The notes under the pieces are model-generated. The model was not told where the DNA came from and made no database searches. It saw only the letters and a program-made list of their open reading frames with translations. Of a stretch of DNA of 64,000 nucleotides, positions 709 to 48,578 are shown piece by piece. The stretch comes from a virus. The DNA is taken from positions 182,769 through 246,768 of the IMG/VR virus record IMGVR_UViG_3300025161_000004. The stretch is one strand, 5' to 3'. Numbering within the stretch: position 1 is the stretch's first letter; the number at the start of each line of letters is the position of its first letter. Position numbers and translations under genes: made by a program.

Positions 709-2685
709 ATGGAATTAAAGTGTCTTAATGATATAATTCATAATGGTTTAGCGATTCACATTGATTTAACTAATTCAAAATCATGGGATCTCAATAATAA
801 ATTTACATTAATTAGTTTAAATCAATGGAAAAATGCTAAATCGGATAACATATTTTTATATGATTTTGGTTTAACGGCATTTGATAATGGTAGAGTTTCT
901 AATATGTATGATACTCTGTCACTAACTCCAAACGATACCAAAGTTAAACTTTATAGAGTAGGTTATAACACTGAAACTGGTGGTACTTTCTATGATGGTT
1001 ATGGTATAACTGGTGTGACAGAAAATGGATATATATATGGTTTAGAATTTACTGGTATTACTGCAAATACTACATTTACTGGCGATAGTTTTGTGGGTAG
1101 ACATTTAAACCTTAATGGTGGTTATTTACAAGGATTTTTTAAATTATATAATTATAACTATGAGTTATTTCCATCAAGATTAAATGGCATTACAATTGAA
1201 ACTGTTGTTAGAATTGATGAGAATTCATACTCTAATAATGGTATTTTGTTCATGATGGGAGCTAGATCAGAAGATAAATATAATGATCCATTTTCTGGTG
1301 AGACAATTCTTTTGTCCACCTATAAAACTAAAACAGAAAAGAATGGAATTATTGAGTATCTTGATTCATATAATTCATATTCGGGAATAACTACTGGTGA
1401 AGCTAATTACTTAGCAGCATATAAAACTGGAACTACGATACCTAATGGTGTTAAAAATTTGGATAATAAATATAATGAAATTTATATTAGACAGAAAAAA
1501 AATTCTATAAATGGTAATGTTATTGCTTTACAGTTAACTACAGATGGTTATCTTGGTTTTAAATATATCGATGACGATGGAATATTACATAACCAAATAT
1601 CATCGAATAAAATTAGTACTGGTTGGACTATAATCACATTAACATTTAAACCATATGAAATAATTACTAATCCAGATTTACTCGAATGTGCTGAAAAAAG
1701 AAAGGGAGATTTAGCTGTATATGTAAATGGTAGACTGTTCTGGAAAATTAAAGAGTTTGATGAATTCTATTTTAAAAATATTAAAAATCAAAAAGAAAAA
1801 CAATTGGGTGTTCCATATAATATTTCTTGGGGTGGTGGTAGTTTTGGATTGAGACACTCATATCATTGGGATGTGAACAAGAGAATATTATATAATGGGA
1901 ATGATCAGTCATATATTAACTCTAATTTTAAATTAGATCTAAACCCATTAGTGGACTACTCGTGCATTACTACTACTGGAATGACTGGTACTTCAGCAAC
2001 AACAGGAATACAACTTCTAATGAATGATACTCTATTCTATAGTATTGATATTTGTGATCCACAAATAGAACTACCAGTCACTGTATTGGAGATAAGAAAT
2101 CTTACTGGAGTTACTCCGACTAAATCGAAATATTATATTGAATTTATACCCTCATTTGAATTATTAAGTAATAGAGATTATGTTTTATCTGCTAAGATTT
2201 ATGATACTGGAATATTCAGAAACACGAATAACTCAACTCAATTACCAACAATGAATAAAATATCGTTAGTTGTTTATGGAACTACAGATATCAATGTACT
2301 TAATGAAGTGACTTATCGTGGTACAACCCCTAATAAATGGTCTGATTTAAGTTTAAAGTTTAGATTAAAAGATAATACTGGTTTACAAACAATTTTTGTT
2401 GGGATATACATCGAATCAGATGAACCATTAGTAGATGGTTTTAGGTTATATATTGATGATTATACTTTAACGGGATCAGATAAATTATCAAAAGATTTAT
2501 CCAAAAACGATTTACTAATAGAAAATAATTTTAGTAATTCATTTGTTGGTGGATTACAAAAATTAAGAATTTATGACTATGCATTTACATCGGAAGAAGC
2601 ATTACATAATGCATATTGGGAATCAAAAAAGAATCCAAATTTAAATTTAAATGTTGTTAAGGGAGGTAGAATAATATTTAGATAG
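709..2685 (+). CDS. LamG/concanavalin-like virion structural protein
   Basis: 658 residues, rich in Asn, Tyr, Thr and Gly, with the beta-strand texture of tail-fibre or virion surface proteins. Segments such as LNGITIETVVRI (about residues 163-174) and GGLQKLRIYDYAFTSEEA (near 630) match the way LamG/concanavalin A-like jelly-roll domains begin and end in phage structural proteins; a carbohydrate-binding-like stretch also lies around 440-610. No catalytic motif seen. The late motif at 684-692 stands 16 nt before the ATG. Likely a virion surface or adsorption protein; the exact position in the particle cannot be told. Confidence 0.7.
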   Translation: MELKCLNDIIHNGLAIHIDLTNSKSWDLNNKFTLISLNQWKNAKSDNIFLYDFGLTAFDNGRVSNMYDTLSLTPNDTKVKLYRVGYNTETGGTFYDGYGITGVTENGYIYGLEFTGITANTTFTGDSFVGRHLNLNGGYLQGFFKLYNYNYELFPSRLNGITIETVVRIDENSYSNNGILFMMGARSEDKYNDPFSGETILLSTYKTKTEKNGIIEYLDSYNSYSGITTGEANYLAAYKTGTTIPNGVKNLDNKYNEIYIRQKKNSINGNVIALQLTTDGYLGFKYIDDDGILHNQISSNKISTGWTIITLTFKPYEIITNPDLLECAEKRKGDLAVYVNGRLFWKIKEFDEFYFKNIKNQKEKQLGVPYNISWGGGSFGLRHSYHWDVNKRILYNGNDQSYINSNFKLDLNPLVDYSCITTTGMTGTSATTGIQLLMNDTLFYSIDICDPQIELPVTVLEIRNLTGVTPTKSKYYIEFIPSFELLSNRDYVLSAKIYDTGIFRNTNNSTQLPTMNKISLVVYGTTDINVLNEVTYRGTTPNKWSDLSLKFRLKDNTGLQTIFVGIYIESDEPLVDGFRLYIDDYTLTGSDKLSKDLSKNDLLIENNFSNSFVGGLQKLRIYDYAFTSEEALHNAYWESKKNPNLNLNVVKGGRIIFR

Positions 2686-43039: not shown

Positions 43040-43110
43040 GCCCGAATGGTGTAAATAGTAGCATACTTGCTACGCAGCAAGAGGTGTTGGTTCAAGTCCA
43101 ACTTCGGGCC
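43040..43110 (+). tRNA. tRNA with 6-nt anticodon loop, anticodon uncertain
   Basis: Acceptor GCCCGAA/TTCGGGC and T-arm GTTGG TTCAAGT CCAAC are perfect, but the anticodon stem CTTGC/GCAAG encloses only TACGCA (6 nt). If the T is position 33 the anticodon is ACG (Arg), yet the operon's leader contains no Arg codon. A base may have been lost, or the loop is genuinely short. Confidence 0.6.
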
Positions 43111-47690: not shown

Positions 47691-47766
47691 GTAACCAAGA
47701 TGATTAAATTTTCGTATAATACAACAAATACGATCCATTAGCATAGTGGTTAATGTAGGACTCTCT
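47691..47766 (+). repeat. Right direct repeat
   Basis: GTAACCAAGATGATTAA onward repeats 45964-46037 and continues into a complete tRNA gene, so the intact tRNA lies on this side of the insertion. Confidence 0.65.
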
Positions 47767-47803
47767 AAAAGTCTTGAGGTGGGTTCGATTCCCACATGGA
47801 TCA
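47732..47803 (+). tRNA. Amber-suppressor tRNA, anticodon CTA
   Basis: Acceptor GATCCAT/ATGGATC, anticodon stem GGACT/AGTCT with loop CTCTAAA: T33, anticodon CTA, A37. T-arm GTGGG TTCGATT CCCAC, discriminator A. CTA reads UAG. The two genes that follow (47971 and 48321) each have an in-frame TAG within the first four codons. Charged amino acid not determinable by eye. Confidence 0.85.
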
Positions 47804-47932
47804 CAAAAATTTATTAAATATGATCTTAAAGATATATCACAACACCAATCGGAAGGTTGAATATGAACTGTGGGCTGTGGTGTTTTTATTTAAAAATCAT
47901 AAAAAATAACTTAACAATTTGAAACTTTTTAA

Positions 47933-47940
47933 TAACTTTG
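47933..47940 (+). promoter_or_regulatory. -7 box upstream of the amber-start genes
   Basis: TAACTTTG, 30 nt before ATG 47971. No TTG at the expected distance. Confidence 0.4.
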
Positions 47941-47970
47941 TACGTATATATAAAAAAAAACAGCACAACA

Positions 47971-48324
47971 ATGAAAAGGTAGATATCTAAACTAATTACT
48001 ATAACCAGACAGGATTTACCTATTGGTTATCAAATTGCACAATGCTGCCATTCTGTTGCAGATTTTGCGTACTATCAACCAGAATTATTTAAATATTGGA
48101 GAGAAAATTCTAACTATAAAATATGTCTCTCTGTTAAAGACGAACAATCTCTAATCAAACTTCATAAAAAACTTATTGATAAAGGCGCACAAGTTGTCGC
48201 ATTTATTGAACCTGATTTACAAAATCAAATGACGGCAATTACCTTCTATGGTACTCCTGAGTATCAGAAAGTAACATCATATCTACCACTTGCAGGCAAA
48301 CAATTAAACCATAATATACTATGA
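47971..48324 (+). CDS. PTH2-type peptidyl-tRNA hydrolase with in-frame amber at codon 4
   Basis: Reading ATG AAA AGG TAG ATA TCT AAA and on, the frame stays open to TGA 48322 (117 codons including the amber). After the UAG the product is KLITITRQDLPIGYQIAQCC, HSVADFAYYQPELF..., VKDEQSLIKLHKKLIDKGAQ and TAITFYGTPEYQKV, the pattern of phage PTH2-like hydrolases that free tRNA from peptidyl-tRNA. The UAG lies in the short N-terminal extension only. With tRNA-CTA 170 bp upstream, suppressor-dependent synthesis is plausible; decay or a non-AUG start after the UAG are alternatives. Confidence 0.7.
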
Positions 48325-48578
48325 AATAGATAGTCGATTCAAATCAGAAAGAAGTGATTGTATTCCACTTTAACAAGAAACATTTGGAGGATCCAAATAT
48401 TCCTATGTGGACAATCAAACATAAAGGTAAAACCTATTATGTACATCACTTAACAAGCTATATTGGATTTTCGACAAAAGAAACTCCAGATAATGAGCAT
48501 ACTAAAGGTAGTTTAAAATTTAAAGGTAAATTAAAGATATATGAAAAAGATAATCAGATACTTGCAGAGATAAGCTAA
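48321..48578 (+). CDS. Small protein with in-frame amber at codon 3
   Basis: ATG 48321 overlaps the preceding stop (ATGA). The frame reads ATG AAA TAG ATA GTC GAT and continues to TAA, 85 codons with the amber. Product: VDSNQKEVIVFHFNKKHLED, PNIPMWTIKHKGKTYYVHHL, then a beta-rich end. A GTG at 48354 could start a shorter, amber-free form. The shape is that of a small phage beta-barrel protein; function unknown. The repeated 'ATG AAA ... TAG ATA' start in two coupled genes argues against chance. Confidence 0.6.

Follow-up and report, generated by a model that had tools for sequence, protein, structure and literature searches.

The window analysed here is the final 64 kb of an IMG/VR phage record of 246,768 bases and has a G+C content of 29%. 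It carries a tRNA gene with a CUA anticodon (loop CUCUAAA) and, downstream on the same strand, two overlapping genes that each contain an in-frame UAG a few codons after the ATG (Table 1). By its tRNA fold and CUA anticodon the gene qualifies structurally as an amber-suppressor tRNA, while its charging and the decoding of UAG in vivo are inferred. A nearest-neighbour comparison was uninformative on its amino-acid identity and the isotype cannot be read from the sequence. No theta ribozyme or other RNA family was found beside this tRNA. The two Cys tRNA genes directly downstream are probably part of the same transcript as the interrupted genes; a role in the mechanism proposed below is not shown. 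Within the tRNA array of the window, ARAGORN assigned a two-base anticodon (cg) to a tRNA-like gene at 43040-43110.

The first interrupted gene opens with ATG AAA AGG TAG ATA (ATG to TAG, 47971-47982) and its frame comprises 117 aa. Residues 7-80 match PF01981 with 37.2 bits (E 3.9e-9), which exceeds the curated cut-off of 23 and places the protein in the PTH2 family; peptidyl-tRNA hydrolase activity is inferred in the absence of an assay. Phage relatives are 42-50% identical, and the alignment contains invariant R, Q, H, D and T columns, for which no activity data exist. In the window copy the first ATG, GTG or TTG occurs only 83 codons past the UAG. The second gene, which opens with ATG AAA TAG ATA (48321-48329), shares an ATGA overlap (48321-48324) with the first. 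A preliminary description of the window had reported a CUA tRNA next to early UAGs in two ATGA-coupled genes. This observation was confirmed on the sequence; it is real and becomes far stronger once relatives are compared.

Table 1. Features of the locus in window coordinates, and sites of a micro-ORF in Stenotrophomonas phages in the coordinates of the respective locus.
Feature	Position	Strand	Basis
Amber-suppressor tRNA gene, anticodon CUA	47732..47804	+	ARAGORN (cta), Rfam RF00005 63.7 bits, cloverleaf fold
PTH2-type peptidyl-tRNA hydrolase gene, UAG at codon 4	47971..48324	+	PF01981, phage relatives, conserved early UAG
In-frame UAG (lock codon) of PTH2 gene, then AUA	47980..47982	+	Sequence; conservation
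HFNKKH-family gene, 85 aa, UAG at codon 3	48321..48578	+	Sequence; about 250 IMG/VR relatives; predicted fold
In-frame UAG (lock codon) of HFNKKH gene, then AUA	48327..48329	+	Sequence; conserved in 50 distinct genes
Two tRNA genes, Cys (GCA) anticodon	48587..48737	+	ARAGORN, Rfam
Micro-ORF, L288 (NC_042082, DLP_5)	about 830-875		
Micro-ORF, L289 (MZ326862, Summit)			
Micro-ORF, L290 (MT110073, DLP_3)			

The phage itself uses the standard code. Across the 246,768 bases of the record, nineteen open frames of more than 150 codons end in TAG, and the next stop follows after a median of 6 codons. When the complete record was scanned with a codon-usage score, only two convincing TAG-interrupted genes emerged, those of PTH2 and HFNKKH. 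A further internal-TAG candidate on the minus strand at record position 97875 was rejected, as it looks like a homopolymer frameshift; the ATPase-like gene there, which lies before the window, seems to shift frame at a stretch of nine A, perhaps through misassembly. The record contains 36 tRNAs, one of them with a CTA anticodon, and no release-factor gene was found in it. It might be argued that the phage uses code 15 throughout, so that UAG is a sense codon and the two UAGs are unremarkable, and the presence of a CUA tRNA, as in code-15 phages, speaks for this. However, only two internal UAGs occur in 247 kb, the 19 long UAG-terminated frames have short extensions, and the position at codon 2-5 is kept across relatives, so that this reading can practically be ruled out. 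The definition of a code-15 recoded phage, in which UAG is sense in many genes and rarely a stop, is not met, and the earlier claim that TAG is not generally reassigned held. In this standard-code phage, then, only two genes stand out, and they adjoin its sole identified suppressor tRNA.

A search of IMG/VR with the 85-aa protein revealed relatives in 250 stretches, of which the best 80 were fetched. Nearly all of the fetched genes of this family open with MK-UAG-I, MS-UAG-IE, MT-UAG, MM-UAG or M-UAG. Many of them are preceded by a PTH2 gene, which likewise has a UAG within a few codons of the ATG. In a mechanical test over the loci, open frames following ATG, up to five codons and a stop were clustered. 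Two large families emerged, HFNKKH with UAG in 48/48 and PTH2 with UAG in 24/24 members, without a single UAA or UGA. No other TAG-locked family was found in the fetched loci; the remaining clusters had 2-3 members and appeared chance-like, whatever their stop. Additional PTH2 searches extended the set to 36 PTH2 and 50 HFNKKH distinct genes. One PTH2 gene (L221) was later removed from the count, since its start lies at a later ATG. In all 85 remaining relatives (35 PTH2, 50 HFNKKH) the early stop at codon 2-5 is UAG, never UAA, although these counts are of sequences and not of independent events. Most PTH2 members share no more than 22-51% identity with the window copy.

Two nonsense mutations in decaying genes, or sequencing errors, would be the simplest alternative, and beyond the odd reading frame nothing speaks in its favour. 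Against it, this codon is shared by dozens of assemblies that are independent of one another and by isolate genomes in the databases, and selection acts on the protein after the UAG; we consider it as good as excluded. The preliminary description had called paired nonsense mutations unlikely by chance and had proposed conservation of the in-frame TAG in related phages as a check. The former held, chance and sequencing error being excluded by conservation, and the conservation was found, with some exceptions among the HFNKKH genes. That both genes carry a UAG held only in part. Several phages gate only the first gene of the pair: the HFNKKH gene behind a locked PTH2 gene lacks its own UAG in L012, L014, L019, L034, L062 and several of L202-L213, as would be the case if a lock on the leading gene were enough for both coupled genes. 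Four further HFNKKH genes (L029, L043, L058, L066) are UAG-less with a CUA tRNA 100-1140 nt away, indicating that the lock does not account for the whole association of HFNKKH with this tRNA. No early UAG was found in the PTH2 genes of XacN1, phiM12, SCTP-2, phiAS5, RAS14 and LR756511. L219 and L220, considered as a UAA/UUA pair, were rejected together with the UAG of L221, as PTH2 there overlaps the upstream frame and starts at a later ATG. tRNAs with a UUA anticodon, ochre suppressors by sequence, were observed near PTH2 genes that are not stop-locked (L219 2347-2419, L281 3411-3487).

The second family is named HFNKKH here after its core VFHFNKKHLEDPxIPMWxxKxxGxTxYVxHV. The 85-aa protein belongs to no Pfam or PHROG family, and comparison with Pfam, PHROGs, PDB sequences and PDB folds gave nothing informative. 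Viral models returned only unnamed or uncertain phage proteins, and no relative was found among 84,980 bacterial and archaeal genomes. The predicted fold is small and beta-rich (pLDDT 91.5); a longer form of the protein has an extra second domain and an acidic tail. With some 250 phage contig stretches and no cellular match found, the family can serve as a marker for the lock system.

Several observations bear on where translation starts. Of the 50 HFNKKH genes, 36 have a Shine-Dalgarno match no more than 20 nt upstream of the ATG, and in 28 the spacing is 6-8 nt. Where such sites occur they are thus spaced to the ATG before the UAG, supporting initiation at that ATG; the AT-rich HFNKKH group, to which the window copy belongs, mostly lacks them. 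Within 20 codons past the UAG no ATG, GTG or TTG occurs in 25/36 PTH2 and 25/50 HFNKKH genes. Directly after the UAG, the pN/pS ratio is 0.38 in PTH2 (first 10 codons) and 0.43 in HFNKKH (first 7 codons). The residues right after the stop are under purifying selection and their codons evolve as protein. In UAG-less HFNKKH genes the ATG directly precedes the equivalent residues (MIKLAC and MVELAC compared to MS-UAG-IELAC). Since these genes start there, UAG and the preceding codon look as if they had been added in front of the gene, and not like a functional residue.

In principle, ATG-X-UAG could also be an upstream mini-ORF, with the protein starting right after the stop, mostly at AUU, a rare start codon as in infC, or later by reinitiation. 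The occurrence of AUU after the UAG in 67/86 genes of two unrelated families is in line with this, as are 14 HFNKKH genes with GTG or TTG 8 codons later. However, the codon after the UAG may also be GTA, GTT, CTT, GGA, AAG or AAC, and the stop is strictly UAG, a constraint that reinitiation does not require. Two phages discussed below, Atu_ph07 and Phosso, have a conserved post-stop stretch without ATG, GTG or TTG, and the UGA/UCA case of the former is left unexplained. We therefore regard the mini-ORF as highly improbable; AUU as a start codon was rejected on the variable next codon and the strict identity of the stop.

The surroundings of the stop were compared in 86 genes (36 PTH2, 50 HFNKKH). 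Immediately 3' of the UAG, 78 genes have A, 7 have G, one has C and none has U, which amounts to a purine in 85/86, and the following codon is the AUU mentioned above in most genes. At the true UAG stops of the source phage, U comes next in 9/19 and AUU in 0/19. In the PTH2 family the distance from the UAG to the conserved domain varies and AUU stays adjoining the UAG, which points to selection on the stop context. A purine after UAG is reported to improve amber suppression, with A tenfold over C in the case of supE (PMC6266110). From these sequences and that report we infer that the context after the early UAG probably favours suppression.

UAG-locked genes were found at 73 loci, and the fetched DNA of 58 of them contained a CUA tRNA. 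At 49/73 loci this tRNA lies within 1.5 kb of the locked gene and always on the same strand; at 17 loci its 3' end is no more than 70 nt before the codon after the UAG. The shared strand and a spacing of often a few dozen nt are compatible with common control, for which transcript data are lacking. In the cultured Rhizobium phage RHph_I1_18 the locked HFNKKH gene is unannotated and is followed by an annotated tRNA-Pyl(cta). The CUA tRNA was absent from the fetched piece at 15/73 loci, most of which are fragments. It was located elsewhere on the contig for L222/L244, and the tRNA loop of L047 is ambiguous. LR745206 (635 kb), which was read completely, has no clear CUA tRNA and only a weak selC-like candidate; the other loci without a local CUA tRNA are fragments or unresolved. 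The candidate is a selC-like fold at record positions 507340-507419 (L191 12340-12419) with the loop CUUCUAA, scoring 28.5 bits with RF01852, below the gathering score (E 0.002). It may conceivably represent an unusual amber suppressor.

Two deposited phages extend the comparison to the identity of the stop. In Sinorhizobium phage Phosso (PV764938), which carries two CUA tRNAs, the annotated PTH2 start is internal, and upstream of it lies ATG AAG TAT TAG GTT with a good Shine-Dalgarno site. In Agrobacterium phage Atu_ph07 (MF403008) the PTH2 gene reads ATG ATT GGC GAA CAC TTT TGA ATT, with UGA at codon 7. ARAGORN analysis of the whole Atu_ph07 record gave a single suppressor tRNA, with a UCA anticodon, and no CUA tRNA; the UCA suppressor tRNA had been reported by the authors of that genome (PMC6102473). 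In both phages no start codon occurs between the stop and the next ATG, and this stretch is partly conserved (EASxKLRIYSIxRxDLE). The database annotation of both chooses the internal ATG, whereby the first strand of the PTH2 domain is lost. Stop identity follows the suppressor anticodon, with the reservation that the swap rests on one phage.

Taken together, these data probably reflect a start-proximal stop lock that is opened by a linked suppressor tRNA, for which expression data are lacking. The sequences show where translation starts, which stop is used, in what context it stands, that the tRNA is linked and, in one phage, that the stop changes with the anticodon; read-through and how efficient it is, as well as the inserted residue and the purpose, are inferences from sequence alone. 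Ribosomes would initiate at the ATG and reach the amber codon within the next few codons, where host release factor 1 would terminate after a very short peptide, leaving little PTH2 or HFNKKH protein. The CUA tRNA is probably co-transcribed, since many relatives have it on the same strand only a few dozen nt ahead of the locked gene. Once transcribed, matured and charged, it would read UAG as an amino acid and both proteins would be made. Such an arrangement would correspond to a coherent feed-forward (AND) gate requiring the mRNA and a working suppressor tRNA. Two features of such a gate are present: the target has a suppressible stop directly behind its start codon, and the identity of the stop matches the anticodon (UAG/CUA in many cases, UGA/UCA in one). 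The preliminary description had claimed that the proteins are made only when the suppressor reads the UAG. Comparative evidence supports this, as UAG was found in 85/85 relatives together with the Shine-Dalgarno spacing, the stop context, the linkage and the UGA/UCA swap, again without expression data. Its further claim, that the gate reports the state of the tRNA pool, goes beyond the evidence and remains an inference.

The likeliest purpose of the lock may be to withhold peptidyl-tRNA hydrolase and its partner until the phage tRNA supply is in place. Alternatively, the amounts of PTH2 and its partner might be adjusted to how strongly stops are suppressed, much as prfB responds to RF2 through an early in-frame stop. 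In this variant the lock would be a homeostat and not a timer: read-through would gauge how much suppressor tRNA is present relative to RF1, while the role of PTH2 and HFNKKH would be to limit suppression damage or to recycle the peptidyl-tRNA released at early codons. Peptidyl-tRNA is the substrate of PTH2, and it is at early codons that short peptidyl-tRNAs are lost. As PTH2 clears peptidyl-tRNAs that are dropped mostly there, a prfB-like sensor of suppression versus termination is possible. HFNKKH accompanies the CUA tRNA even without its own UAG, which also fits. Against this variant, functional data are missing and HFNKKH has no informative family or fold match; on balance we lean slightly away from it.

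The proposed lock resembles several known systems. In code-15 phages (crAss-like, Lak) a phage CUA tRNA likewise decodes in-frame UAG and a role in timing has been suggested; the idea that recoding delays lytic genes is that of Borges 2022, as cited in PMC10879173. There, however, UAG is sense in many genes and at any position, whereas the present phages keep the standard code and have UAG only at codon 2-5 of two families. A synthetic feed-forward "leak dampener" also places an amber codon directly behind the start codon and pairs it with a suppressor tRNA under shared regulation, which removes leak, and a UCA/UGA version works too (PMC7969014). That circuit was engineered in E. coli, whereas the lock described here occurs in nature, is conserved and has PTH2 and HFNKKH as its targets. 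The prfB gene for RF2 is autoregulated via an early in-frame UGA and frameshifting, without a suppressor tRNA. It is alike in that an early stop ties expression to the contest at that stop; it differs by the frameshifting and the lack of a suppressor tRNA, and the locked product here is not a release factor. In pyrrolysine and selenocysteine decoding a dedicated tRNA also reads a stop as an amino acid, and the residue is catalytic or structural. In the lock, by contrast, the preceding codon varies and stop-less homologues simply start at the next residue.

Amber suppressors without an identified target have been described in the standard-code genomes of XacN1 (PMC5852040) and Summit (PMC9022506). 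Read-through was sought there at gene ends, whereas the lock targets lie at gene starts. Neither study identified what the tRNA serves (PMC5852040, PMC9022506), and the purpose of the Summit tRNA was called unknown (PMC9022506). XacN1 PTH2 has no early UAG, so the XacN1 suppressor is left without an identified target. We found no description of an early stop with a linked suppressor in the open-access PMC literature searched. The lock offers a concrete, testable target for suppressor tRNAs in a large group of standard-code phages and would be a natural counterpart of the synthetic leak-proof gene switch. The early UAG also explains gene-finder errors such as the missing annotation in RHph_I1_18 and the later ATG in Phosso.

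A bolder joint reading would see a widespread class of natural switches in standard-code phages, in which stop and anticodon co-evolve (UAG/CUA, UGA/UCA), a leader-peptide version occurs in Stenotrophomonas phages, and the switch governs PTH2 and an unknown partner, which tune suppression in their turn. Arguments for and against it are, in our judgement, evenly balanced. The Stenotrophomonas element is a micro-ORF about 400 nt upstream of the CUA tRNA, in front of gp070, and is common to three siphophages (Table 1). It has a Shine-Dalgarno site and the sequence AGAAGGAGAAGACC ATG AAG TAG GTC TAC AAG CCG CC(C/G) TAA, which would read M-K-UAG-V-Y-K-P-P, and is almost perfectly conserved. That it represents a leader-peptide version of the same logic is no more than a possibility.
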